In this document: one piece after another, positions 10,601 to 32,157 of the stretch
How positions within the stretch are numbered: position 1 is the stretch's first letter
Layout: every line of letters begins with the position of its first letter
From: a virus
IMG/VR virus record: IMGVR_UViG_3300000116_000099
Span: 1-32,847 of that record
Direction: 5' to 3' (one strand)
DNA length: 32,847 bases
Position numbers and translations under genes: made by a program
Notes under the pieces: model-generated
What the model saw: the letters and a program-made list of their open reading frames with translations, nothing else
What the model was told of the DNA's origin: nothing
The model's database searches: none

Positions 10601-13600
10601 CTACGAAGTTGAGTTTTCACAAGATGGACAAATATGGCATAAAGCAGGAACAAATCAAAGTACCGACTTTGAGATAACTGATATGACCGTAGGAGATATT
10701 GCAATACTTAGTAGTACTTACTATTTTAAAGTATACTTAGTAAGCTTAAACGGAATAAGAAGTCCTGTAACTGAAAGTGGTGCGAAAACTATAGACTTTA
10801 ATAGAGCTGTAGGCCCTGCAGAAGGTAGTATAGGTACTACCAACCATTTTATTAACTTTATTGGAAATATTAGTGGAGACTTTAGTCTTGAAGCGGGTAA
10901 GGTAACATTTAGCCCACAAAACATTTTTCATAATGACGGAGTAAATGAACACGCAGTCAGTAGTCAAGCTCAACTCGATTTTACAGGGTTAGATCATACT
11001 TCTACAACAGGTGGAAATGAAGGTTATGTTTATTTTGATCATAGCGCAAATGCTTTTATAGCCGTTGCTTTCGATGTAACTTCAGGACAATTTTATACTG
11101 TAGGTAGTAGTATATTTAGTACTGCTACAGGTACACTTACCTCTGCAAATCGAAAAACCTGGACAGGATTAGATAGTACTAATTTTGATGGGGATTTGTC
11201 AAAGGGTAATGTATTTAAGTTTACTCACAGTAGGAGCGGAAGTTCCGTAGACTACTATCACAGAGTAAAAGAAATTGTATCTGACTCTGAAATGCTATCC
11301 TATGTGTCTTCAAACCAAACTATAACTAACGCACATAATCAAGCATTTTCAAAACCTAACCTTTTAGTAGATTATGGTACTGGTGGCGACACCATTATGG
11401 GTAAGGTTACAAAGACAGGAGCGAGTACTTACACTTTACAGAAGTATGGGTCGTCTCAGGGCGAGTCTGCTTATGGTGTAGGCGCTACAAATCTAAACTT
11501 TACATTTGACGCTAATCTTGATGGAACAGTAACAAATGAAAGTGCCTATAGTTGTGACTTCATTATTAGAAAAGGTGGTCAGGATTATACTTTTGCAAGT
11601 AGTGGTGATGCGCAACATACTTTTGGATTATCTTTACAAGCAAAAACTGGCTTTGATAATGATGATGATATAGTTATTAACGCGTCAACTGGACAAGTAA
11701 CAATCGGCGATGGGGATATGGACGCCCATACTGCAGCTACTGCAACAATACGAATATTTGATAGAGGACGCTCAGACTTACTAATTGAAGATAAGACTTT
11801 ATCTTTTACAAAGTCTTCACAAGGAACAGCAGGGGAAGACGCAAAACTTGTAGTTGTAACTCCTAGTTCTCAGATGATGACAAAAGAGGTGTTCCCAGAG
11901 GATTATGGATCGACGTCTACTTTTTTCAGTCCCACAAGTATAACAATTACGGCACAATGTACAAATACCACGCAAAATGGAACATGGTCAAACTCTGGAG
12001 GTAGTATAACTTCTAGCAATACCATTACAAACGGGAAAGCTACCGCCACAGTAAATTCTACTCAACTTGTAGATGATATGACAATTACATATACATTACA
12101 TGCAGACGATGGCGGTGCTTCAGATACTACTCAACTCCATTTACTAGAAATGTTTGCTGGCTCAGTGCAGCCAATTCTTTCTAATCCTGCTCATGTGCTT
12201 CCAGCAAGTAAGGCAGGAGTAGTGAGCGATTATACTGGTAGTGGTACACGTATAGAAGTGTACCAGGGAACAAATCGATTAGACTATGATGGAGTCGGAA
12301 CTGCTAATGGACATTGGAAAGTAACTGTAGCAAATGTTGCTGATATTACAGAAGGCTCAGTAAGCTCTGGAGGAACATCTGGCGGCAGATATGCAAATAT
12401 TGGGGATCATTCCGGCATGTCCAATTCTGCAGATTTTAAAACAATTACCTACACTATTACAGGTAAGGCTACAGATGGTACTGCATTTAGTTTTGCACAG
12501 CCCCAAACAATTACAAAAAGTAAAACAGGGCAAGACGGTACTGCTGGGCAAAGTGTAAAGCACGAAACTATTTTTAGAAAGAATAGCAATACTATTGATG
12601 ACGACGTAGGTACTTTTGCTAGTCCTCTTACGGGTAATACTAATTGGTCTCTTTCAATGCCCGCCCTTACAGCTAATGGAGATGTAGCATACGCATCATC
12701 TAGAACTTTTACTTCAGATGGAGCGTCTCCCCAAGATGCAACTTGGTCAACGCCTATAGCCGCACTTACGAGAACAAATGGTACAAATGCTACTCCATTA
12801 ACAATTACTGATACTGACACCTCAGTTGCAGGTGAAACTACACTTACCTTTAGTGATGGCTCTACCTTTACAGTAGATAATGGAGAGAATGGAGATGATG
12901 GGGATGGTATAGATGTAATTTATCAAAATTCAAGTACAGCCCTTACAACCGCTCCAGCTGATTCAGCAGGTGCACCAACTGGTTGGTCATTCACCGCTTC
13001 GGCTCCTTCGACTAACGAAAAGACTTATATTGCAATTGGAGTACGAACAAAAAATACAGGCTCATATGATTGGTCAGTTCCTTCTCCAATAACAGCATTT
13101 GACGGGGATAACGGAGCAGGAGTAAACTTTGTATTCGCGAGAAGCGCTACTAAACCAAACACTCCTACAGCAAACGGACTCAATATTCCTAGTGCTGATA
13201 TACAATGGTATGATGATCCCCCAAGTGGAACTACTACTTTATGGTCTTCAAAAGGTACAGTAGGAGTTAACGGAACAGCATATGCATGGGGCGCAGTATT
13301 CCAAGTAGAAGGAAGCGCAGTAGCGGAATTAAAATGCTACTCGGATGTTGTAGCAAATAATGGAGCTTCTCCTACTAAACCTGGTACTTCTACTTATAAT
13401 GCAACTACTTCTACTCTTACACTTAACGACACAGATTGGAATCTTACTCCTCCAAGTGTAACAAACAATGGAGATACTGTATATTCTTGTACTGTTCTTG
13501 TAAGTGGGTCACCTAACGCTACCGCTATAGCTATTGGTAACGGTTGGTCAACGCCAGTAATACATACTAGAAAAACAGATGGAGCAACAGGAGACCCCGG

Positions 13601-15471: not shown

Positions 15472-16365
15472 ATGAAACTTGCAGTCGTCGAACTAATAGA
15501 CGTTAATATAGACCACCGAAACAGAGAGTTGGTAGAAATACGAAGAATATGTGAAGAACTTGAAATTGATTATCAAGAGTTTCCAGTAAATGTTTTACCA
15601 GTCGGAGACTGGTTTGACTCAGATACATTATGTATTGTAAGAGGGTCAGTAAAAAATAGAAAAATGTGGTTAGATAAAATAACAGAAATGGAATACAGAG
15701 GGTGTACAATGATAAATACTAGGAATTGTATCGAAGTCTGTAACGATAAATATAGAAGTTATCTAGCACTAAATCAAGTAGGGTTACATCAACCTAATAC
15801 AGTACTTGTTCCATCTGAGTACGATAGTCTTATAGACCATGTAGTTCAAGAAGCAGGTTTACAATTTCCGCTTGTACTAAAAACACTCGAAGGGTCTTAT
15901 GGGGTCGGAGTAGCACTAATGGAATCTACTATAGGACTAAAAGGAGTTATTCAAGCTATGAACACTCGAATAGATTGGGAAGGGGCAATACTACAAGAAT
16001 ACATACCTCACAGCAGAGACATAAGAGCCCATGTAGTTGATAACGAAATCTTTGGTTCTATGTTTAGAACACCACCTCCAGGCGATTTTAGAACTAACAT
16101 TGCAAGAGGAGGACAAGGTATTATTTGTGAGTTAACAGAATTAGAAAAAGAACATTGTAAATTAGCAGCTAACGCTGTAGGAGCAAGATGGTCTGGAGTA
16201 GATTTTATACCCTCAGATGATAGAGAAAACATACCCCCCAAAATTATAGAAGTAAATTGTGCGGCAGAAACAGGAGGCCTAGAAGCAGCACTAGTAGGTA
16301 AGGACGATGAAGAATCCGCACCTTTATTAAGAAAAATAATAGAACACTTTATGGTAGAAAAATAA
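15472..16365 (+). CDS. RimK-like ATP-grasp ligase
   Basis: This 297-residue protein has the ATP-grasp fold of the RimK / glutathione synthetase type, which joins an amino group to a carboxylate through an acyl phosphate. Motifs seen: LVLKTLEGSYGVGV (134-147) with the ATP-binding Lys and glycine-rich loop; LQEYIPHSRDIR (174-185); MFRTPPPGDFRTNIARGGQ just after it; and the metal ligands D244 (GVDFIP), E260 and N262 (IIEVN). All expected active-site elements are present, so it is probably active. The ATG follows the J stop after one base, and the stop overlaps the next ATG (TAATGG), so it is coupled to both the tail genes and the two GNAT genes. The substrate is unknown; amino-acid or peptide addition to a virion or host protein is inference. 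Confidence 0.92.
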   Translation: MKLAVVELIDVNIDHRNRELVEIRRICEELEIDYQEFPVNVLPVGDWFDSDTLCIVRGSVKNRKMWLDKITEMEYRGCTMINTRNCIEVCNDKYRSYLALNQVGLHQPNTVLVPSEYDSLIDHVVQEAGLQFPLVLKTLEGSYGVGVALMESTIGLKGVIQAMNTRIDWEGAILQEYIPHSRDIRAHVVDNEIFGSMFRTPPPGDFRTNIARGGQGIICELTELEKEHCKLAANAVGARWSGVDFIPSDDRENIPPKIIEVNCAAETGGLEAALVGKDDEESAPLLRKIIEHFMVEK

Positions 16366-20669: not shown

Positions 20670-23600
20670 ATGCCACTCATAGGAAAAGAAAATCACTTAG
20701 TCTCCACGCTAGAGGCAAACGCAGTAGGGACTACAGAAATTGTAAGTAACTCTATTACTGCGAGTGAGATCGCTGGGAACGCAGTCGGCTCATCAGAAAT
20801 TGCAGCAAACGCAGTAGGCACCTCCGAAGTAGCAACTAATGCTATCGGAGCAGCACAATTACAAAACACAGCGGTAACTAGTGTAGGAGATAATTCAATT
20901 GACTCAGCAGCTATAGCGGCTAACTCAGTAGACTCATCAGAAATAGCAACCGGTGCCATTGACACAATTCATATAGGATCAATTCAAGTAACAGCGGCTA
21001 AATTAGCAACTGATTCAGTAACTACACCGAAAATAGCAGACAACGCTATTACTACAGTAAAAATTGCTACTAACTCGGTGACAACAGAAGCACTTGCAAA
21101 TAACTCTGTTACAGCTACACAAATACCGAGCGGAACAATCACAGCAGATTTGTTAGCGTCAGACTCAGTAGATAGTGCAGAAATAGTAGATGGAAGTATT
21201 GATACCGCGCATCTTGGTAACTTACAAGTTACTGAAGGAAAAATAGCAAATAATTCTATCACAGCTGCAAAGATAGCAGCAAACGTTGTAGGTACGTCAG
21301 AGATAGCACAAAATTCTATCACAGCGACGCAAATACCAGCAGGTACAGTCGTAACAGACTTACTAGCAGATTTAAATGTTACTACTGGAAAACTAGCTGC
21401 AAATGCAGTTACTACTAATCAGATAGCACAGAATCAAGTAACAGCACATCATATAGCAGATGGCAGTATTACAGCAGTTCAATTATCTACAAACTCTGTA
21501 GATTCAGCAGAACTAGTAGATGGGAGTATTGATAGCTCACATTTATCAACAGGTTCAGTCATTACGACAAAAATAGCAGACAATGCTATTACAGCAGCCA
21601 AATTACCTTCTGGAGTTATCGCTTCAGACCATATTACGGACGGTACTATTGTATCGGGAGATATTGCAGCAAATACTATAGCAACAGGGAATATAGCAGA
21701 CAACGCCATAGATGGCACTAAAATCGCGCAGAACTCGATACTTACCCGACACATTGACGATGCTCAGATAGTCACTTCGCATCTACTGGATGCGAATGTG
21801 ACAACTGCTAAAATAGCCGATGCTAATGTAACGACTGCAAAAATATTAAATGCTAACGTAACGACAGCAAAGATAGCCGCTAATAATGTTACTTCAGCAA
21901 AAGTTGCTACTGACCAAATTTTATCAAGACATCTAGCAGCTAATAATGTTACTACGGCAAAGATAGCCGCGGATTCTATAACTAATAATGAACTTGCAGA
22001 TAATGCAGTAACATCAGCAAAAATAGTAAACGGAGCAGTCAATACCGTAGATATAGCAGATAACGCAGTTACTGCCGCTAAAATTGCAGATGGAAGTATT
22101 ACTAGCACACAACTGGGGGCTAACTCAGTAGATAGCGCGGAACTTATTACTGGTAGTATAGACACTATCCATATCGGCGCCTCACAAGTCACAACAGCTA
22201 AAATAGCAGACGACAACGTAACAAATGCAAAAATTGCAACTAACGCAGTAAATGCTGATAGCATAGCAGCAAACGCTGTATCTGCCGCAGAACTTAAATC
22301 AGATGCATTAAGTGGGCAAACCATGTCGGGTAATGTTAACTTCTCAGGAGATGTTACAGTATCAGGCTCTAGCTTCATAGCTTCCGCTACTACAATTACT
22401 TCTGGAGATTCACTCATATCATTAGCTACTGGTAACAATAGTTCTGATGCTGTAGACATAGGTATCTATGGATTATATGATACGTCGGGTTCGCAAGATT
22501 TATACTCTGGTATATTTAGAGATGCAGATTCTTCTGGAAAATGGAGACTCTTTAAGGACTTACAAACACAACCAACTACTACAGTTAACTTAAGTGCTGC
22601 AGGATATACAGTAGCCACATTAGTAGCAAACATAGAAGGCAACGTAACAGGAGCTGTCACAGGCAATGCAGATACAGCAACAACCTTAGCCTCTGCTAGA
22701 AATATTGGTGGAGTATCTTTTAACGGCTCAGCAGATATTAACTTACCAGGTGTTAACGCAGCAGGTAATCAAGATACTTCAGGCAACGCAGCAACAGCTT
22801 CAGAAGCTACTATACTATCTACTGGAAGAACAATTGGAATGACTGGAGATGTCGTTTGGACATCAGCCTCTTTCAATGGCTCAGCAGCAGTAACAGGTAG
22901 CGCAACAATTCAAGCAAACGCTGTAGAATCAGCAATGATAGCAGAGAATAATATTACTGCACGAGAAATTGCAACAAACGCAATTGTTAGTGCATCTATT
23001 GCTCAGAACTCTATTCTAACAAAACATATAGATGACGCACAAGTTAATACGGCGCAACTAGCAGGTAACTCTGTAACAGCAGCTAAGATACAGACAGACG
23101 CTGTAGGAACGTCAGAAGTAGCAGCTAATGCTATAGATGGTACTAAGATAGCTTCTAACAGTATTCTTACTAGACACATTGATGATGGACAGGTTACTAC
23201 AGACCAAATTTTGGACGGTACAATCGCCACAGGAGATATTGCAAATAATGCTATCTCTAGCGCAAAAATTGCTACCAATTCCGTAACAGCAGAGAGCATT
23301 GTAGCTGGTTCTTTAGATGCTTCGCATTTAGCCGCTAACTCAATAGACTCCTCTGAATTAGTTTCTGGTAGTATAGACACTCTACATTTAGGAGCGCTAC
23401 AAGTTACATCAGCAAAACTAGCAGCTGACTCTGTAATATCAGGAAAAATAGCCGCAGGTGCTATTAGTCAGTCAACAGATTTTGGAGCAGGAGTAGTCGA
23501 TTCTACCGCTCTAGCTACTGATTCGGTTATCGCAGGTAAGATAGCCGCTAATGCAGTAACTTCTGCTAAAATAGGAGCTAATCAAGTAGGTAGTTCCGAG

Positions 23601-24305
23601 ATAGCACAAAATGCAGTAACAGCCACCCAAATTCCTAGTGGGACAATTGTAGCAGACTTAATTGCTGCAAACGCAGTTGATAGCTCAGAAATAGCTACAG
23701 GTAGTATTGATACTATCCATATCGGGGCACTTCAAGTAACAGCAGCAAAACTAGGGGCTAATTCTGTAACAGCAGCAAAAATAGCAGCTAATGCAGTTGG
23801 TGCAAGTGAGATTGCAAATAATTCTGTAACTAATCTACAATTATCAAGTGCTGCACTTAGCGGCAAAACGATGTCTGGCACGGTTAACTTTAGTGGTAAT
23901 ATTACTTCAGAAGGAAATGTAACACTAGGCAACGGAACATCAGATACTGCTAAAGTAAGTGGAGATCTGAATATACAAGACGTGGCTCATTTAAATGTAG
24001 CTACTCTTACTAGTAACTCTACAGGGCAACAAACGCTCGATACTGTTGCTAAAGCTACGTATAGAACTTGCAAATGGTTAGTATCGATAACTAATACTAC
24101 TGATGGAGACTATCAAGCAATTGAAATTTTGTGCTTCCATGACGGAACTACAGCTTATCTAACGCAGTACGCATCTATTTTCGACAATGGAGCACAGGCT
24201 ACTTTTGATGCGGATATAAGTGGTGCTAACTTAAGATTAAGAGTTACCCCAGCATCAACAGACAACATGACATTCAAAGCCATTAGGCAAGCAATCGAGG
24301 TATAA
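20670..24305 (+). CDS. Large tail fibre protein with decapeptide repeats
   Basis: This 1211-residue protein is made of two repeat blocks and two globular parts. Block 1 (about 17-546) and block 2 (about 750-1060) are tandem decapeptides of the form N-[AS]-[VI]-[TDG]-x-x-[KEQ]-[IL]-A-x, as in NAVGSSEIAA and NSVTTEALAN. Each block ends in the same junction, LSGQTMSGNVNFSG (547) and LSGKTMSGTVNFSG (1063). Between them (about 560-745) is a fibre domain known from T4-like cyanophages, with DIGIYGLYD, LYSGIFRDADSSGKWRLFKD and ASARNIGGVSFNG. The C-terminal domain (about 1085-1211) has YRTCKWLVSITNTTDGDYQ and AIEILCFHDGTTAYLTQYAS. The repeats probably form a trimeric beta-solenoid shaft and the last domain the tip. 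There is no chaperone domain, so folding may need a separate protein. Confidence 0.88.
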   Translation: MPLIGKENHLVSTLEANAVGTTEIVSNSITASEIAGNAVGSSEIAANAVGTSEVATNAIGAAQLQNTAVTSVGDNSIDSAAIAANSVDSSEIATGAIDTIHIGSIQVTAAKLATDSVTTPKIADNAITTVKIATNSVTTEALANNSVTATQIPSGTITADLLASDSVDSAEIVDGSIDTAHLGNLQVTEGKIANNSITAAKIAANVVGTSEIAQNSITATQIPAGTVVTDLLADLNVTTGKLAANAVTTNQIAQNQVTAHHIADGSITAVQLSTNSVDSAELVDGSIDSSHLSTGSVITTKIADNAITAAKLPSGVIASDHITDGTIVSGDIAANTIATGNIADNAIDGTKIAQNSILTRHIDDAQIVTSHLLDANVTTAKIADANVTTAKILNANVTTAKIAANNVTSAKVATDQILSRHLAANNVTTAKIAADSITNNELADNAVTSAKIVNGAVNTVDIADNAVTAAKIADGSITSTQLGANSVDSAELITGSIDTIHIGASQVTTAKIADDNVTNAKIATNAVNADSIAANAVSAAELKSDALSGQTMSGNVNFSGDVTVSGSSFIASATTITSGDSLISLATGNNSSDAVDIGIYGLYDTSGSQDLYSGIFRDADSSGKWRLFKDLQTQPTTTVNLSAAGYTVATLVANIEGNVTGAVTGNADTATTLASARNIGGVSFNGSADINLPGVNAAGNQDTSGNAATASEATILSTGRTIGMTGDVVWTSASFNGSAAVTGSATIQANAVESAMIAENNITAREIATNAIVSASIAQNSILTKHIDDAQVNTAQLAGNSVTAAKIQTDAVGTSEVAANAIDGTKIASNSILTRHIDDGQVTTDQILDGTIATGDIANNAISSAKIATNSVTAESIVAGSLDASHLAANSIDSSELVSGSIDTLHLGALQVTSAKLAADSVISGKIAAGAISQSTDFGAGVVDSTALATDSVIAGKIAANAVTSAKIGANQVGSSEIAQNAVTATQIPSGTIVADLIAANAVDSSEIATGSIDTIHIGALQVTAAKLGANSVTAAKIAANAVGASEIANNSVTNLQLSSAALSGKTMSGTVNFSGNITSEGNVTLGNGTSDTAKVSGDLNIQDVAHLNVATLTSNSTGQQTLDTVAKATYRTCKWLVSITNTTDGDYQAIEILCFHDGTTAYLTQYASIFDNGAQATFDADISGANLRLRVTPASTDNMTFKAIRQAIEV
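20718..22307 (+). repeat. Decapeptide (30-nt) repeat block 1
   Basis: About 50 tandem 10-residue units with consensus N-[AS]-[VI]-[TDG]-[TSA]-x-[KEQ]-[IL]-[AL]-x. Longer super-repeats are visible, for example SAEIVDGSIDTAHLG and SAELITGSIDTIHIG. The DNA copies have diverged at third positions, so the array is old or actively randomised compared with the 66-nt arrays further down. Confidence 0.85.
22917..23849 (+). repeat. Decapeptide (30-nt) repeat block 2
   Basis: This is the same decapeptide type as block 1, about 30 units, after the central fibre domain. Some super-repeats are shared with block 1, such as NSILT[RK]HIDDAQ and TGSIDTIHIGALQVT, so the two blocks probably arose by internal duplication. 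It ends in the repeated LSGKTMSG junction. Confidence 0.85.
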
Positions 24306-24535: not shown

Positions 24536-27500
24536 ATGGCGATTTATGTAAACGACGGAGGTACTCTCCGTACGATACGATTTATTGCGGTCAATGATGC
24601 AGGCACGGTTCGTCGTGTCCATCACGTTTATGTAAATGATGGAGGGACTGTTGCAGGCCCGTTTGATGCAATCCACAATACTGCTAGAACTACTAATACT
24701 GAGACTACTTTTGTTTCAGGAACGCAAGAAACTGCATTCTCCACTACATGCTCCTTTGAAACAAATGTAAATACTAGTACAATATTTGACACAGACAGAG
24801 ACACCACCACCACTTTTAACACTACTAGAACTACGGGAAGCGTAATTGCGACTACTAGGTCTACAACAACTGTATTTAATACTACTACATTATTTAGCAC
24901 CACTACAGCGTATGCAACTACTCGTGATACTATTACAACGTTCAATACTACTACGAACTTTACTACGACCACAACATATGCGACTACTCGTGATACGACG
25001 ACAGCATTTAATACTACTACGAACTTTACTACCACCACGACGTTCAATACTACGTTAGATACAACAACTGTATTTAATACTACTACAAACTTTACTACAA
25101 CTACTACGTATGCAACTACTCGTGCTACTACTACTACGTTTGATAGTACAACAACTTATACTACTACGACTACGTTTGATACCAGTAAAGCAACTACTAC
25201 TGTATTTAATACAACTACTAACTATACTACTACAACCACGTATAACACGACGAAGGCTACAACAACAGTATTTAATACTACGACAAACTTTACTACTACT
25301 ACTACGTATAACACCAGTAAAGCAACTACTACTGTATTTAATACAACTACTAACTATACTACTACAACCACGTATAACACGACGCGTGCGACAACAACTG
25401 TATTTAATACTACTACAAACTTTACGACTACAACGACGTATGAGACTAGTAAGGCAACCACTACAGTCTACAATACGACAACGACGTTTAATACTTCTTA
25501 CGACACAACGATAAATACTAGTAGATCAACAGGGTTTACTAACTCTACGTCACAGAATACAAACACAAGCTATAATACTAGCTTTACAAATGCTACTACT
25601 CGTAATACTAGTACCTCGTATAACACTAGCTTTACAAATACGACTACTCGTAATACTACTACTTCGTATAATACTCAGTTTGAAAATGCTACTACTCGTA
25701 ACACTACTACTTCGTATAATACTACCTTTACAAACACTACTACTAGGAGTACGGCTACTGCATGGAACACGGCCACAAGTAGAACAACGGATAATGTAAC
25801 AGTATCTACAAATACATCATATGCTACAAATACATCCTATGCTTGTACATTTACAGCATCTACAAATACTTGTTATAGTACAAATACTTCATATGCTTGT
25901 GCATTTACAGTAGCTACTAATACTTGTTACTCCACTAATACAAGTAGAACAACAGCTCAAACAGCATCTACAAATACTAGTTATAGTACGAATACTTCTT
26001 ATCAATGTGCGTTTACTAATAATACAGCTACTAGCAGAAGTACAGCCTTTACGAACAGTACAAACACTTGTTATAGTACAAATACTTCATATGCTTGTCA
26101 GTTTACTAATAATACAGGGTTTACAAACAATACTGGTGCTCATACTAATAATACAGGCTTTGCGAACAGTACAAACACTTGTTATAGTACAAACACGTCA
26201 TATGCTTGTCAGTTTGTAAACAATACGAATACTTCTTATCAATGTGCGTTTACAAATAATACTGGTGCTCACACTAATAACACAGGGTTTACGAATACTA
26301 CAAATACGTGCTACTCTACAAATACGTCATATGCTTGTCAGTTTACAAACACTACTACTGGGTCGAATAATACCGGCGCCCATACTAATAATACAGGCTT
26401 TACGAATAGTACAAACACTTGTTATTCTACTAATACCTCGTACGCTTGTCAGTTTACAAACAGTACCTCTAGGAATACACAAACAGGGTACCAAACTGCA
26501 TTTACAAACTCTACCGCGTATGGTACTTCTAGAAATACAAATACGTCATACAGTACAGCGTTTAGTAATAGCACTAGCAATAGCTTTAATACGAATACAT
26601 CGTGGACTACCACATATTCCACTACCTATTTAATATATATTGATGCAGAAATTGGCTGGATGCCATATACTGAAAGTACATCAAGAACTACTTCTGGTAC
26701 AAACGTTAGTCAGTACACATTTAACACAAACACAAGTAGAACGACAGCAGCAACGGCAAGTACCGCGTATAACACAAGTAGAAATACAAATACTTGTTAT
26801 ACTTGTTTCTTCTCCAATGCTACATCGTATAACACAAACACTAGTTACCAGTCTACGTTTACAAACAATACTGGTGCACACACTAATAATACGAATACTA
26901 CTAGGTCTACTAATACTTGTTACTCTACGAATACATCGTGGAGTACGAATACTTCGTATCAATGTACGTTTACAAACAATACTGGTGCACATACTAATAA
27001 TACGAATACTAGTAGGTCTACTAATACTAGCTATGCTACTAATACTTCGTATGCCTGTGCATTTGTAAATGATACAAACACTAGTTATCAATGTGCTTTT
27101 ACAAACAATACTGGTGCACATACTAATAATACGAGTACTACAAGGTCTACTAATACTTGTTACGCTACGAATACTACAAGGTCTACAAACACTAGTTATC
27201 AGTCTACGTTTACAAACAATACTGGTGCACACACTAATAATACTGCCACAAGTAGAAATACAGCCTTTACGAACAGTACAAATACTTCGTACGCTTGTAC
27301 GTTTACAAACAATACTGGTGCACACACTAATAATACGAACACGTCGTATACTACTAGCTTTACAAACAATACTGGTGCGCATACAAACAATACTAATACT
27401 AGTTACCAAACTACATTTACAAACAATACTGGTGCGCATACAAACAATACTAATACTAGTTACCAAACTACATTTACAAACAATACTGGTGCACACACTA

Positions 27501-28738
27501 ATAATACGAACACGTCGTATACTACTAGCTTTACAAACCAGACTACTGGAACAAATAGTACCTCGTATAATACTAATACTAGCAGATTAACAAATGTGGA
27601 TTCAATATCTACAACATACAATACTTCTACTAGCAGATTAACAAATGTGGATTCAATAGCTACTAGTTATAATACTAATACGAGTAAAGTAACTCATGTA
27701 GATTCAATAGCTACTAGCTATAATACTAATACTTCGAGAGTTACTAACATTGTAGTAACAACTACTTGGAATACAAATACTGCTAGAACTACTACTTACG
27801 AGACAACCTTTGCTACTTCTAGATCAAGTTCAAGAGCTACTTCAACAAGTAGGTCTACAACAACAGTATTTAATACTAGTACTACTACTGCAAGTTCAAG
27901 GGCTACACAAACAAGTAGAAGCACAACATGTACGTTTAATACCGCGCACTCTACTGCAAGTTCAAGAGCGACTGCGACAAGTTTATCAACTACTACAACG
28001 TATAATACTACTACTACTACTGCAAGTTCAAGGTCTACTTCAACAAGTAAATCGACTGTATGTACCTTTAATACGTCACATGCTACTGCAAGTTCAAGAG
28101 CAACGGCAACGACTCTATCCACTTCTACAGTATATGCCACAACATTAGGAACACTCACTAGTAGAGCTACAGATACTACTAGATCAACTACTTGTACATT
28201 CAATACTACAACTACAACATCTAGTTCTAGAGCGACTTCAACAAGTAAAACAACTACTTGCACATACGAGACTACTAAGTCTACTGCAAGTTCGAGGGCT
28301 ACGGGTACTACAAGGTCAACTACTTGTACATTCAATACTACTACCTCAACAGCTAGTTCTAGGGCGACTTCAACAAGTTTAACAACTACTTGTACATTCG
28401 ATACTACAACTACAACAGCAAGTTCAAGATCTACTTCAACAAGTAGACCTACAACTTGTACCTTTGAGACTTCGGCAGGAACTACTACAACGTTCGAAAC
28501 CTCAAGTACTACAGGGTCTGTATTTGCTACTACTAGAAGCACCACGAGTGTATTCGGTACTACTAGAGTAACAGATACAACAATAACAACGGAACATTTG
28601 ACAACTTTTGCTACTGCAACAGCTACAAATATTTTTGAAAGAATAACTTCCGCCCAAGCTGGGACTATATTCGATACTGAAGTATCAAGCGCTTCAGATA
28701 TCGGTGCCTCATATTGGGACGGATCAACATGGAGTTAA
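24536..28738 (+). CDS. Giant Thr/Asn/Ser/Tyr-rich repeat protein, probable fibre or adhesin
   Basis: This 1400-residue protein is one long frame. The N-terminus repeats a short VND[GA]GT motif three times (YVNDGGTLR, AVNDAGTVR, YVNDGGTVAG), a pattern seen at the start of other marine phage fibre genes and probably the virion anchor. Then come about 1200 residues of low-complexity repeats: 22-residue units (about 110-325), 16-residue units (about 340-405), mixed units with NTSYACQF and NNTGAHTNNT (about 420-1000), and 22-residue units again (about 1097-1316). A short non-repeat island (YIDAEIGWMPYTES, near 698-711) interrupts the centre. The last 40 or so residues (ERITSAQAGTIFDTEV to DGSTWS) are unique and may be the tip. 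Lys is rare, about 30 Cys occur at fixed repeat positions, and N-x-T/S sequons are extremely dense. An AGGA overlaps the preceding stop. Function is inferred from position and N-terminus. Confidence 0.85.
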   Translation: MAIYVNDGGTLRTIRFIAVNDAGTVRRVHHVYVNDGGTVAGPFDAIHNTARTTNTETTFVSGTQETAFSTTCSFETNVNTSTIFDTDRDTTTTFNTTRTTGSVIATTRSTTTVFNTTTLFSTTTAYATTRDTITTFNTTTNFTTTTTYATTRDTTTAFNTTTNFTTTTTFNTTLDTTTVFNTTTNFTTTTTYATTRATTTTFDSTTTYTTTTTFDTSKATTTVFNTTTNYTTTTTYNTTKATTTVFNTTTNFTTTTTYNTSKATTTVFNTTTNYTTTTTYNTTRATTTVFNTTTNFTTTTTYETSKATTTVYNTTTTFNTSYDTTINTSRSTGFTNSTSQNTNTSYNTSFTNATTRNTSTSYNTSFTNTTTRNTTTSYNTQFENATTRNTTTSYNTTFTNTTTRSTATAWNTATSRTTDNVTVSTNTSYATNTSYACTFTASTNTCYSTNTSYACAFTVATNTCYSTNTSRTTAQTASTNTSYSTNTSYQCAFTNNTATSRSTAFTNSTNTCYSTNTSYACQFTNNTGFTNNTGAHTNNTGFANSTNTCYSTNTSYACQFVNNTNTSYQCAFTNNTGAHTNNTGFTNTTNTCYSTNTSYACQFTNTTTGSNNTGAHTNNTGFTNSTNTCYSTNTSYACQFTNSTSRNTQTGYQTAFTNSTAYGTSRNTNTSYSTAFSNSTSNSFNTNTSWTTTYSTTYLIYIDAEIGWMPYTESTSRTTSGTNVSQYTFNTNTSRTTAATASTAYNTSRNTNTCYTCFFSNATSYNTNTSYQSTFTNNTGAHTNNTNTTRSTNTCYSTNTSWSTNTSYQCTFTNNTGAHTNNTNTSRSTNTSYATNTSYACAFVNDTNTSYQCAFTNNTGAHTNNTSTTRSTNTCYATNTTRSTNTSYQSTFTNNTGAHTNNTATSRNTAFTNSTNTSYACTFTNNTGAHTNNTNTSYTTSFTNNTGAHTNNTNTSYQTTFTNNTGAHTNNTNTSYQTTFTNNTGAHTNNTNTSYTTSFTNQTTGTNSTSYNTNTSRLTNVDSISTTYNTSTSRLTNVDSIATSYNTNTSKVTHVDSIATSYNTNTSRVTNIVVTTTWNTNTARTTTYETTFATSRSSSRATSTSRSTTTVFNTSTTTASSRATQTSRSTTCTFNTAHSTASSRATATSLSTTTTYNTTTTTASSRSTSTSKSTVCTFNTSHATASSRATATTLSTSTVYATTLGTLTSRATDTTRSTTCTFNTTTTTSSSRATSTSKTTTCTYETTKSTASSRATGTTRSTTCTFNTTTSTASSRATSTSLTTTCTFDTTTTTASSRSTSTSRPTTCTFETSAGTTTTFETSSTTGSVFATTRSTTSVFGTTRVTDTTITTEHLTTFATATATNIFERITSAQAGTIFDTEVSSASDIGASYWDGSTWS
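24862..25509 (+). repeat. 66-nt (22-residue) repeat array A
   Basis: TGTATTTAAT-type landmarks fall at 24871, 25069, 25201, 25267, 25333 and 25399, all multiples of 66 nt apart. The protein unit is close to TTTVFNTTTNFTTTTTYNT followed by [ST][KR]A. A 72-nt stretch at 25181-25252 is repeated without a mismatch at 25313-25384 (two units on), so parts of the array are recently copied. Confidence 0.92.
25557..25750 (+). repeat. 48-nt (16-residue) repeat array
   Basis: Four units of about 16 residues of the form NT[ST]TSYNTxFxNxTTR follow array A. Tyr and Phe fall at fixed spacing and one Arg ends each unit. Confidence 0.82.
25800..27540 (+). repeat. Mixed NTSY / NNTGAHTNNT repeat array B
   Basis: Interleaved units contain NTCYSTNTSYACQF and FTNNTGAHTNNT. 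Toward the end a 57-nt unit is tandemly duplicated without mismatch (starts at 27362 and 27419), and a 66-nt stretch at 27302-27367 recurs exactly at 27473-27538. These perfect copies indicate recent unequal recombination or slippage. Confidence 0.88.
27824..28483 (+). repeat. 66-nt (22-residue) repeat array C
   Basis: Ten units repeat at exactly 66 nt. The GCAAGTTCAAG-type landmark falls at 27890, 27956, 28022, 28088, then 28154 and 28220 in degenerate form, and 28286, 28352 and 28418. The protein unit is like TASSRATSTSxSTTCTFNTT, with Arg and often Cys at fixed places. The period equals that of array A although the motif differs. Confidence 0.93.
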
Positions 28739-28741
28739 AAT

Positions 28742-28963
28742 ATGGCACAGCCAAATAACAAACCTAAACCAGGTGATTTAAAAGAAGCGGATGATCATTG
28801 GACTAAGAAGTATCGTAATGACGATATAACGCCAGAGTACATCAATAGAAAGATGGAGAACCTTATGTCGGCTCTCTTTGATACAATAGGGGAGAATGAG
28901 GAGAGAATTAAAGATCTCGAAGCTCAAGTCTGGAAACTATCACAAGCAGTAAGGATAGACTAA
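28742..28963 (+). CDS. Small charged protein with C-terminal coiled coil
   Basis: This 73-residue protein is very hydrophilic in its first half (NNKPKPGDLKEADDHWTKKY). Its second half (about 38-71) is a likely helix with heptad spacing, including LFDTIGENEERIKDLEAQV and LSQAVRID. It follows the Thr-rich gene after 3 nt with GGAG 7 nt before the ATG. Its stop overlaps the next start (TAATGG). It may be an oligomerising adaptor or a fibre-assembly chaperone. No family is recognised. Confidence 0.7.
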   Translation: MAQPNNKPKPGDLKEADDHWTKKYRNDDITPEYINRKMENLMSALFDTIGENEERIKDLEAQVWKLSQAVRID

Positions 28964-29841
28964 TGGCTTTAGACGCGTTAGCTTTAAATGAAGAATTAGG
29001 TGATGTTCCAACTCACTTTATGAAATCAGGGAGTTGCATGCCTCCCAAAGAAAGACTTGCTACAATGCTAGAATTTCAAAGGAGAGTACTCCCTAAAACA
29101 CATAGAGGAGTAAAATTTGAATTTGACCTTTGGTATAATACGAATGAATTAAGAACTATTAGAAACTTCTTATACACCGACTTTCTAGGGGATGGAATTT
29201 TTATTCGTGTTAACACTATAAAGATAAACGATAGAATAATGCATAGTATTGCTGATTCCGATATTAAGATAGACGAAGAAAGAATACAAAAAATTATTGA
29301 TAATCTAGGAAATAAATATACATTACAAATAAACCACGATACTTTTGATAAGGTTGTGTTTCCGCCAGGAAGTAACTTAATACAAGGCGGAAAAAATGTA
29401 ATGGATTGGAAAAAACTTGACCAAAAGGTCAGAGAAGGGTTTATAATTAAACCACACCCTATCACAGCGCATGTTTGGGTTGCTAAGTATAAGGAACGCT
29501 ACGGCGCAGATAAGGTACTAAATAAAAAGTATGGTGGGTCAGAAATACTATCAAAGTGTTCTGACTTAGCATTTTGCCCGAATAGTCAAATGGGCATAGA
29601 AGGGCTGCTTCTAGGAAAAAATATTCATTCAATAGCTACTCCCAGAGTTGCTAGAGAGAAGAATCACCTAACATATGAAGCAATTTATCAAGGCATCGCA
29701 GGAAAAGAGTGTGGATCTAGAACTGCTCTTTTGAAAATATTATCCAGTAAAAGATCTGGCATAGTATTTCACTATGACGATGATGCAGAGGAACGTGTCG
29801 AGAGGTATCTCGAACAATTTTGGGAATATACATTAAAATGA
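28963..29841 (+). CDS. Capsule-type glycosyltransferase-like protein
   Basis: This 292-residue protein has a C-terminal half resembling GT-B type capsule and teichoic-acid enzymes (KpsS/KpsC-like or glycerophosphotransferase-like). It has IIKPHPIT (161-168), then after a spacer a CSDLAFCPNS segment (199-208) and GIEGLLLGKNIHSIATPR (211-228). The pattern KPHP, then NS-x-x-GIE-x-L-x-x-GK, is the nucleotide-sugar site of these families. The N-terminal half (about 1-130) is not recognised and is shorter than usual. The start is coupled to the gene before (TAATGG), and its stop overlaps the next start in ATGA. It could glycosylate a fibre protein or alter the host surface; the sugar and acceptor are unknown. 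Confidence 0.65.
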   Translation: MALDALALNEELGDVPTHFMKSGSCMPPKERLATMLEFQRRVLPKTHRGVKFEFDLWYNTNELRTIRNFLYTDFLGDGIFIRVNTIKINDRIMHSIADSDIKIDEERIQKIIDNLGNKYTLQINHDTFDKVVFPPGSNLIQGGKNVMDWKKLDQKVREGFIIKPHPITAHVWVAKYKERYGADKVLNKKYGGSEILSKCSDLAFCPNSQMGIEGLLLGKNIHSIATPRVAREKNHLTYEAIYQGIAGKECGSRTALLKILSSKRSGIVFHYDDDAEERVERYLEQFWEYTLK

Positions 29842-30824
29842 TAGATATAATTATTCTAACAGAAGAAATAAACAGTGAGTTTACTCTCTCTTCATTACTG
29901 AAGTATGATGAAAACTTTCGTATTCACCTATTTAACAGGAGGGGCCTGCTTATCGAAAATATGGAGCCAACTATTAACTGGGCGATGAAAAACTTCAGAG
30001 AAGTTTATAGCTATCAGACTCCTTACGCTTTTAGAGGTCCAACCTCTAATAGAATGGCTAGAGTATTATGTCAATTTAGAGAGCATTGGAAAGATAAAAC
30101 TCCTGCCGGAGGCGCAATAGAAAGAGTTATAGTACACACTAAAGGTGCAAGAATATTTAATGGTGGTTTAAAAGAAAACATCCCAACTGTGACACAAATG
30201 GGAGATAGAATTTGTTATTTTTCTAGAAAACATCAGTACTTTGATCACAAATTTTATGGCAACTATTACCAAATCCTAGGATTAGAAGCAAAAAAGGATG
30301 ATTATGAGAAAGATTTTCTTTTACTAAACTGGAAGAAGTTTAAAGCACTAAACCAATTTCATATGTTCTTTAATGGAGGTAAACCAACTATGCATCAATT
30401 ACCGAATTCTATTGAATGGTTTAACGAAAAAGACTCCTTTATACTATCTGCAGAAAATAATCAACTATTTAAGTATCTTAAAGAGCAGAATCATGGGTAC
30501 ATGCCTCTATATATGGATATGAATGTAGACGAGTTAATCAAGAAAGAGTCTATTGGACCAAAAGATACTATAAATCATAATATTATGATGCGAAAAGCTT
30601 TCTCAGTAAATTTACAAACAGCAGAGCTATTTATGGACTACTACCTGCTACCTAGTTTATTTTATATGGCAGTACCCTGGGATATGTGGACAAAAGTTAT
30701 AGACGATATTCCTTTGAACTTAAGAAGAGAAGGAGTAAACGAGAGAATACTACAAAAAGCAAATAAGCAGAAGAAATATTTAAGAAAAGTAGTAGAAGCA
30801 GGATATTTACTAGGGAAAATTTGA
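29838..30824 (+). CDS. Unrecognised protein in the glycan/Coq4 gene group
   Basis: The start chosen is the ATG at 29838, overlapping the previous stop in ATGA and giving 328 residues. An in-frame ATG 18 nt upstream is less likely. I do not recognise the protein. It opens with a hydrophobic strand IDIIILTEE and NSEFTLSSLLKYDENFRIHL, which faintly recalls the first strand and helix of GT-A glycosyltransferases, but no DxD motif in a convincing place is seen. The body is rich in aromatic and charged residues (RICYFSRKHQYFDHKFYGNYYQ) and looks soluble and globular. No signal peptide or membrane segment is seen. Placed between a glycosyltransferase-like gene and a Coq4-like gene with coupled starts, it may act in the same pathway. 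Confidence 0.75.
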   Translation: MIDIIILTEEINSEFTLSSLLKYDENFRIHLFNRRGLLIENMEPTINWAMKNFREVYSYQTPYAFRGPTSNRMARVLCQFREHWKDKTPAGGAIERVIVHTKGARIFNGGLKENIPTVTQMGDRICYFSRKHQYFDHKFYGNYYQILGLEAKKDDYEKDFLLLNWKKFKALNQFHMFFNGGKPTMHQLPNSIEWFNEKDSFILSAENNQLFKYLKEQNHGYMPLYMDMNVDELIKKESIGPKDTINHNIMMRKAFSVNLQTAELFMDYYLLPSLFYMAVPWDMWTKVIDDIPLNLRREGVNERILQKANKQKKYLRKVVEAGYLLGKI

Positions 30825-31489
30825 TGTTTCGTAGTATTCAGCTATTATCTCAACTAATTAGGTATAAACCCAATCAACCAGATAATGCAGACCTAATAGC
30901 TAAGGTTGTATTACACTTCACAGGAACTTCAATCGATCATCAAATAGAACTCTGGTCAAAGACTGATACTGGCCAGCGTTACCTTGCAGGCGAACGTATA
31001 ATAGATAATATTGAATCTTTTCGCACTAGAGATGAAAACACCTTAGGACATCAATACTTACAATTTATGGATAAATATTACTTTGATAAATTAGGGAGTA
31101 TGCTAGATTTGAATAAAAACGGTAAAGTAGGTAATAATACAAAACAAAAATATGGATTGTTTATTATGGACTGCCATGACTTTCTTCATGTTATAACTGG
31201 ATATCCGCCCACTCCCCACGGAGAGCTAATGCGTATAAAAATTTATAAACAATATGAGGGTAGAGGTTGGGCAGCAGTCGATGCTGTAGGCAAGCTTTGG
31301 GCATATAGTAAAGGAATAAAAGAAGCAAAAAGATATCGCGAACTTGCCCAAGAAGCTAGACAGACTAGAAAATTAGTAACTAATTATATATTTGAAGATT
31401 GGTTCGAAATGTTAGGGTGGCATGTCAATAAAGTTCGGAAAAATCTCAGCACCAAATCGACAACCCTTTACGACTATAAAAGTCTTTAA
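30824..31489 (+). CDS. Coq4-like protein (ubiquinone biosynthesis family)
   Basis: The ATG at 30824 overlaps the previous stop by one base (TGATG) and gives 221 residues, the usual size for Coq4. The defining metal motif HDxxH-x11-E is complete: H118-D119-x-x-H122 and E134 within CHDFLHVITGYPPTPHGE. The family segment before it is also present (TLGHQYLQFMDKYYFD, about 71-86), as is the helical C-terminus with GKLWAYSKGIKEAKRY. Coq4 proteins bind a divalent metal and have been linked to the C1 step of the ubiquinone ring and to holding the Coq complex at the membrane. No transmembrane segment is seen, as in the family. In a phage this would be a metabolic cargo gene or a repurposed member of the fold. 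Family call is strong; function here is inference. Confidence 0.87.
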   Translation: MFRSIQLLSQLIRYKPNQPDNADLIAKVVLHFTGTSIDHQIELWSKTDTGQRYLAGERIIDNIESFRTRDENTLGHQYLQFMDKYYFDKLGSMLDLNKNGKVGNNTKQKYGLFIMDCHDFLHVITGYPPTPHGELMRIKIYKQYEGRGWAAVDAVGKLWAYSKGIKEAKRYRELAQEARQTRKLVTNYIFEDWFEMLGWHVNKVRKNLSTKSTTLYDYKSL

Positions 31490-32157
31490 TCTTCCAGTAT
31501 TTCTGTTTCTAGGTCAGAAAGAACTTCCCATTTAATAATCCCATTGCGGGACATTTCTAAAGCGTACTCTCTTTCTGCGGGGACGTTGTGAGGAATCTCA
31601 TCAACGGTATTTCTAGGTAAATGCCAGCTATTCGGGTATGCGGCTCCTACTTTAAATGGAGCAGATTTTGCAAAGAAATCAAACCCAACAATCGTAAGAC
31701 TCTTCCAAACCCATGCTTTCTTTATTAACCATAGTAAAGTAATAAAGCCATTAGAGGGACGCCCTAATAAAGCATTATTCTCATATCCAAACTCGTCATA
31801 CAATTCTAGTAATTCTGCGTCTGTAAACATTGTATGGAACTCTCCAATCAACGACTTATCTACTTCTTTTGCAGTATTTAAGTTTATTCGTGTACGATTT
31901 AGTAATTTTGGCACATTCTGTAAATTAGGACGTTCCGCCATTTGTGCAGCCCTTAAAAATCCAGTTGCCCAAATATCTGTTCGTATTCCTATATTTCTGT
32001 AATGCCTTTCACGAGGTATTCCTTTACCCATGCGAATAACTATATCATGACCATCAATAAACTCTCCTTTATCATAATTTAGAATCTCTACAGAGTTGCC
32101 TACTAAGACCACATTTTTATTTTCTAGTAGTTTTAATATTAGTTCTGCAGTAGCCAT
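31486..32157 (-). CDS. GT29 / sialyltransferase-like protein
   Basis: This 223-residue protein on the minus strand carries counterparts of the sialylmotifs: VVLVGNSVEIL (16-26) with G31, I35-D36, D38 and R42 in GEFIDGHDIVIRMGKG (motif L); RPSNGF (133-138) and GFDFF (158-162) for motif S; and H190-x4-E195 (HNVPAE), the VS pattern. The cytosolic form has no membrane anchor, as in bacterial and viral relatives. Its start lies 19 nt inside the end of the SDR gene upstream, and its stop overlaps the stop of the convergent Coq4-like gene. It may add a sialic-acid-like sugar to a host or virion glycan; donor and acceptor are unknown. The motifs make the family likely, and activity is not shown. Confidence 0.75.
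   Translation of the reverse strand: MATAELILKLLENKNVVLVGNSVEILNYDKGEFIDGHDIVIRMGKGIPRERHYRNIGIRTDIWATGFLRAAQMAERPNLQNVPKLLNRTRINLNTAKEVDKSLIGEFHTMFTDAELLELYDEFGYENNALLGRPSNGFITLLWLIKKAWVWKSLTIVGFDFFAKSAPFKVGAAYPNSWHLPRNTVDEIPHNVPAEREYALEMSRNGIIKWEVLSDLETEILED

Follow-up and report, generated by a model that had tools for sequence, protein, structure and literature searches.

The record IMGVR_UViG_3300000116_000099, from an uncultured virus of bacteria (positions 1 to 32,847; this whole 32,847-nt stretch is referred to as the window) carries on its + strand an open reading frame (ORF) at 24536-28738 that encodes one uninterrupted protein of 1400 amino acids (aa). This protein is very probably a tail fibre in the form of one giant antiparallel beta-hairpin, the tip of which would contact the receptor. 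Sequence statistics show that its two arms are equal, antiparallel, complementary and joined at a central turn, and they strongly support pairing of the arms as a hairpin; a hairpin at the tip itself is predicted locally by structure modelling. The trimeric state, the inside face, the length, the tail location and the receptor role we infer. If the proposal is true, this protein would rank among the longest single-chain antiparallel beta-hairpins proposed.

As we picture the fibre, a small N-terminal attachment domain would be followed by a single strand of ~640 residues running outward. Exactly halfway along, in a short tip without repeats, the chain would reverse and then return alongside itself as far as the base. 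One face would carry the large side chains, at spacings of 4 or 6 residues, and the other the small Thr, Asn, Ser and Ala residues; Phe or Tyr would stand opposite Arg, Lys, Gln or His, and some Trp opposite Gly, fixing both partner and register in the manner of a zip. The analogy with gp37 of T4 suggests that three chains would assemble into a six-stranded needle, its small-residue face inside and its tip on the host receptor. With a rise of 3.0-3.3 Angstrom per residue, such a needle would be very thin and ~190-215 nm long.

Composition and relatives of the protein

Thr (37.0%), Asn (12.6%) and Ser (12.4%) together account for 62% of the protein and Lys for 0.6%; it contains 30 Cys residues and 116 N-x-S/T sequons. 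Tandem Repeats Finder detected 66-nt arrays near both gene ends (24875-25467 and 27869-28461) and, between them, periods of 48, 51, 54, 57, 111 and 129 nt. The initial annotation, made from the sequence alone, had described a Thr/Asn/Ser/Tyr repeat protein of 1400 residues with 22-residue arrays at both ends, and this description is confirmed. The 'exact 66-nt periods' that it reported hold for the spacing at the protein level, which is exact, and not for the DNA, the repeat copies of which are only ~68-87% alike. Beyond that annotation, we found a central non-repeat island (residues ~690-719), repeat types arranged in mirror order around it, and a residue-exact complementarity of the two halves. 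A DNA palindrome was ruled out as the origin of the mirror symmetry, the single inverted match (31 nt, 77%) lying within one arm. The GC skew flips over 24536-28738, reaching about -0.25 versus positive values in most of the window; this reversal is caused by the ACN and AAY codons of the gene, and long antisense ORFs therefore cover the same interval.

For the 1400-aa protein, no Pfam family was found at E<=1 and no PHROGs match at E<=0.01, and neither its N- nor its C-terminal end matched a family in these two databases. In the PDB, phmmer matched 0 chains, and a profile of 23 relatives returned a sole hit at E=0.28, as expected by chance. Comparison of the whole protein and both of its ends with 50,697 phage records gave nothing useful, for which the low-complexity filter is partly responsible, and the family was found nowhere described in the open-access literature.

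Relatives were collected by pattern-plus-tblastn scans of uncultured viral contigs in IMG/VR, which yielded 42 complete sequences (668-1556 aa) and then 17 more (up to 1621 aa), 59 in total; one of them, L024, equals the window protein except for one residue. Both chain ends are conserved in every relative, with a short island free of repeats midway between them. No relative was found among sequenced phage isolates, where BLAST masks such sequence. Contigs of the genome collection gave 22 pattern matches, 0 of which were confirmed as relatives, and in Melnitz, Mosig and PSS2, which have matching tail genes, no gene annotated nearby is labelled as a T-rich relative, a check made by annotation and not by sequence. 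The proposed hairpin turns a low-complexity dark-matter gene, passed over by similarity searches, into a readable architecture.

Two arms of equal length

Measured from fixed landmarks, the C-terminal array is as long as the N-terminal array minus a fixed constant, exact to the residue, in 59/59 relatives. This lock spans 15 different array lengths, from 147 to 429; changes down to two residues are mirrored, and at least 14 length changes are matched. The matched arms raise the evolutionary question of how an insertion in one of them comes to be balanced in the other. The SRxSxR landmark of the C-terminal array likewise falls at the exact predicted residue in all 59, and the offset between the mirrored glycine motifs of the two arrays is the same at each of five array lengths. 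The island was located in 13 of the first 14 sequences, in which it sits at 0.498-0.509 of the distance between the fixed landmarks, and in most relatives it lies at 0.49-0.51 of the inter-array stretch.

Not only the lengths but also the repeat periods are paired across the arms (22|22, 30|30, 20|20, 18|18). Read inward from each end, L067 has periods of 22, 20, 32, 20, 32, 20 and 10 on both sides; both arms of L065 read 22, 30, 20, and both arms of L041 read 22, 18, 16. Over 33 non-redundant relatives, local periods agree at 90% of 1116 mirrored positions, compared with 35% in parallel orientation and 57 +/- 5% in 200 rotated mirrors (maximum 69%).

These observations bear on the beta-solenoid suggested in the initial annotation, which noted that a 22-residue period suits one turn. 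In such a beta-solenoid or beta-helix fibre, each 22-residue unit would form one coil and F, Y and N would stack in ladders. Regular periods, an Asn/Thr-rich sequence and evenly spaced Cys residues would suit such a fold, yet a solenoid calls for a constant coil length with stacking at that period, whereas periods range from 10 to 32 within one chain and nevertheless agree with those at the mirrored place in the opposite half, and large residues pair with the mirror arm at one register. Neither equal arrays nor complementarity across the halves is required by a solenoid, and the tip is modelled as a hairpin. We therefore regard a solenoid as very improbable.

Cross-arm register and pairing

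When all i+j values were scanned for cross-arm correlation of large residues, the correlation across the arrays peaked at a single i+j in 32 of 33 relatives. Applied to the inner arms of 11 even-period relatives, the array register places 493 of 544 aromatics (91%; background 9%) opposite R, K, Q or H, with no aromatic opposite another aromatic; other registers mostly give 0-15%, except for two, shifted by six residues, that give ~40%. The proper test of the register is provided by the 17 later relatives, which were not selected: the length lock and the array register hold in 17/17 and the inner register in 16/17, aromatics facing R/K/Q/H at 577 of 652 positions in the arrays and 799 of 976 in the inner arms. 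The pooled table shows who pairs with whom: the partners of F (n=311) are R in 173 cases, Q in 108 and K in 20; Y stands opposite R in 163/205; the partners of R (n=200) are Y in 113 cases and F in 82; and those of W (n=22) are G in 10 and Q in 7.

In the window protein itself, 34 of the 47 aromatics of the arrays face R/K/Q/H at i+j = 1418 and 0 face an aromatic, and 34/37 R/K/Q/H stand opposite an aromatic; F114:R1304, R130:F1288 and F164:R1254 are examples. Only these end arrays pair at a constant register, which fails in the inner arms because their units differ by one residue (16|17, 18|19); the protein belongs to a subfamily in which pairing of the inner arms would require bulges of one residue. 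A gapped alignment of the inner arms, run on the L024 copy (one residue off the window protein) with the code learned from other homologs, scored 97 against -29 +/- 19 for 200 rotated decoys (maximum 49), and all eight related proteins tested outscored every decoy. Four Cys pairs of the window protein lie at near-mirror positions, by plain count, and may or may not form disulphides; over the family, Cys-Cys pairing across the arms showed no sharp peak.

On balance, we lean towards the view that the two halves are complementary over hundreds of residues through an F/Y:R/K/Q/H (and some W:G) code, so that the sequence would specify partner and register in the manner of a nucleic-acid duplex, with the repeat numbers of the arms co-evolving. 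Statistics on the sequences establish both the lock and the code; the code may, in addition, itself dictate folding and register. Designed cross-strand beta-hairpins, such as Trp zippers, cation-pi hairpins and those with aromatic rescue of Gly, are peptides of 12-20 residues. The hairpin protein would use similar cross-strand side-chain pairs, but is natural and would employ them over hundreds of residues. The 59 complete sequences could serve as a natural data set of matched beta-strand pairs, from which cross-strand pairing rules may be read directly, and would offer a simple code for the design of long rigid protein needles.

Strand geometry and the tip

In the constant-register relatives, 96-99.7% of F/Y/W/R/K/Q per arm segment fall on one parity, and same-parity large residues are mostly spaced 6 or 4 apart. 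Such one-sidedness is expected of an uninterrupted extended strand that carries its small residues on the opposite face. The long thin fibre suggested in the initial annotation is supported by this parity, kept for hundreds of residues per arm, and by the conserved position of the gene in the tail module. A disordered, low-complexity, heavily glycosylated coat protein of the mucin type, with no regular fold, might also be envisaged from the 62% T/N/S, the 116 sequons, the glycosyltransferase-like genes nearby and the low predicted local distance difference test (pLDDT) scores. However, the residue-exact length lock, the 96-99.7% parity and the near-zero number of pairs between aromatics require strands of defined geometry, and we give this reading almost no credence.

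The arrays, hundreds of residues away, predict the position of the turn: the DPE turn lies at most half a residue from the array-predicted centre in 13 of the 18 cases where such a turn is present. AlphaFold2, supplied with 19 tip sequences, places strands at 690-703 and 707-719, with a block pLDDT of 80-85. Rather than confident disorder with no periodic contacts, which the initial annotation would have taken as evidence against a fibre, AlphaFold2 thus gave low confidence over most of the chain and a confident hairpin at the tip.

This turn also matters for the possibility that the arms pair between different chains, the N arm of one with the C arm of another, instead of or besides within a chain, giving a domain-swapped or intertwined oligomer. 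Sequence statistics are blind to the difference between intra- and inter-chain pairs, and in T4 gp37, G921 packs on F970 of another subunit (PMC6957217); the two are exact mirror positions. On the other hand, the mid-chain turn motif is compact and confidently predicted, and a rod formed by a fully extended antiparallel dimer would carry attachment domains at either end. We consider inter-chain pairing improbable.

Several observations weigh against the hairpin with matched arms. Differences of at least one unit in one arm only occur in the close pairs L030/L029, L074/L065, L052/L046 and L115/L117; L183 sides with L115 versus L117, and these differences put the inner arms out of register. They may have arisen through the collapse of identical repeats during assembly, or may be genuine intermediates. 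The 11 constant-register relatives were picked after the inner register had become visible in them, and the even-period L038, L039, L042, L043, L047 and L053 peak elsewhere or weakly at the common inner register, at which L114 also has no inner-arm peak. Close relatives of the window protein have odd-period units, and gaps are needed for pairing. The whole-chain AlphaFold2 monomer of the shortest relative, L071, is poor (pLDDT 34, predicted template modelling score 0.22), but its sole long strands are, at low confidence, the two arm bases, 49-75 and 606-631, which speaks for the hairpin. Finally, the 59 relatives share ancestry and are not independent cases.

Layout of the window protein

The N-terminal domain (residues 1-44, 24536..24667, + strand, as are all the parts that follow) bears three VND[GA]GT-type motifs and is conserved in all relatives. 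It has six short strands in the L071 model (pLDDT ~70), and 37 aa of it weakly match, at 40%, a protein that Pectobacterium phage ZF40 encodes beside tail-fibre genes; this part is probably the virion-attachment domain. The outgoing (N) arm comprises a 22-residue array with a 66-nt period (residues 63-325, 24722..25510), which pairs with residues 1095-1355 at i+j=1418, and an inner part (residues 326-689, 25511..26602) of 16-, 18-, 37- and 43-residue units, the local periods of which mirror the return arm. The tip (residues 690-719, 26603..26692; TYSTTYLIYIDAEIGWMPYTE...), with its hairpin turn at 704-706, is probably the receptor-contacting head. In the return (C) arm, the inner part (residues 720-1094, 26693..27817) consists of 17- and 19-residue units (FTNNTGAHTNNTNTSYQTT, NTNTSRLTNVDSIATSY) and mirrors the outgoing arm with many units one residue longer (16|17, 18|19), extras that we read as putative beta-bulges. 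It is followed by the second 22-residue array, again with a 66-nt period (residues 1095-1360, 27818..28615), and by the C-terminal domain (residues 1361-1400, IFERITSAQAGTIFDTEVSSASDIGASYWDGSTWS, plus the stop codon, 28616..28738), which is near-invariant in relatives. If the hairpin model is right, the two termini would sit next to each other on the virion side of the fibre.

Comparison with known fibres

The closest parallel we considered is the distal needle of T4 gp37 (D10/D11), a six-stranded, antiparallel, elongated structure of ~150 x 25 Angstrom, the stem of which is built from residues 882-931 and 960-1009 (50 + 50) around a tip, 932-959, that carries the receptor sites (PMC6957217, PMC3004832, PMC7291167); its mirror residues G921 and F970, from different subunits, touch (PMC6957217). 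Like gp37, the window protein has out-and-back equal arms around a central tip, with the array lock in 59/59, and polar small residues. Its arms, however, are ~13 times longer than those of gp37, no PDB chain is detectably similar to it in sequence, and HxH iron motifs number 0 in it and 1 each in two relatives; conversely, the aromatic:Arg/Lys/Gln complementarity of the hairpin family is absent from the gp37 stem. By analogy, the protein may work like the gp37 needle, while membership of the gp37 family is not shown, because there is neither homology nor HxH motifs. An HHpred resemblance to the collar and needle of gp37 is reported for the C-terminal part of the lambda side tail fibre Stf (PMC7291167). 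The window likewise has a lambda-type tail, but the Stf needle is short and long mirrored repeat arms are not reported for it. The proposed architecture suggests thin fibres of ~100-250 nm on some uncultured marine phages.

Genomic context and neighbouring genes

The tail module of the 32.8-kb record is of the lambda type and encodes minor tail proteins (PF05939, PF05100) and an NlpC/P60 protein. A 2595-aa protein occupies the place of the J-type tail-tip gene, and it is followed by fibre-like genes and then the hairpin gene, which lies directly downstream of tail-fibre genes. In the relatives examined, the gene order is kept, with fibre genes upstream and genes of 270-310 aa and 305-335 aa downstream. 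Tail-fibre function rests on this gene position and on analogy, and the same hairpin might instead be a head fibre, a spacer or a structural needle. We regard such a role as rather unlikely, given that the gene stands directly behind two fibre-like genes and the large gene in the J-type place, that fibre-gene synteny recurs in other loci, and that the tip sequence varies between subfamilies while the rules of the arms remain unchanged.

The two genes after the hairpin gene (28963-29841 and 29820-30824, both +) recur behind it in the loci examined, and may have a fibre-modifying role. The product of the former resembles capsule-synthesis glycosyltransferases, with a KPHP motif and PF05159 only at E=0.17; Caulobacter phage Lullwater and Stenotrophomonas phage DLP_6 encode relatives of it close to their tail genes. 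In most relatives examined, these two genes are followed on the opposite strand by a GT29-like gene (Pfam E=3.6e-7); the coordinates noted for this possible glycosylation locus are 31486-32157 (-) in the window and 12053-12682 (-) in L075. Because of this nearby gene, glycosylation of the hairpin protein is possible. A weakly GT8-like gene adjoins the GT29-like gene in related contigs, and the two may form a glycosylation cluster behind the Thr-rich fibre.

Inside the tail module, a RimK-like ATP-grasp ligase is encoded at 15472-16365 (+; E=1.1e-28), and the next two genes, whose products measure 205 and 227 aa, match no PHROG. The 1211-aa tail-fibre gene at 20670-24305 (+) has ANAVGTSEIA-type repeats and belongs to phrog_892 (E=1e-108); in related contigs, this fibre gene encodes 765-1291 aa, a length with no obvious relation to that of the hairpin.

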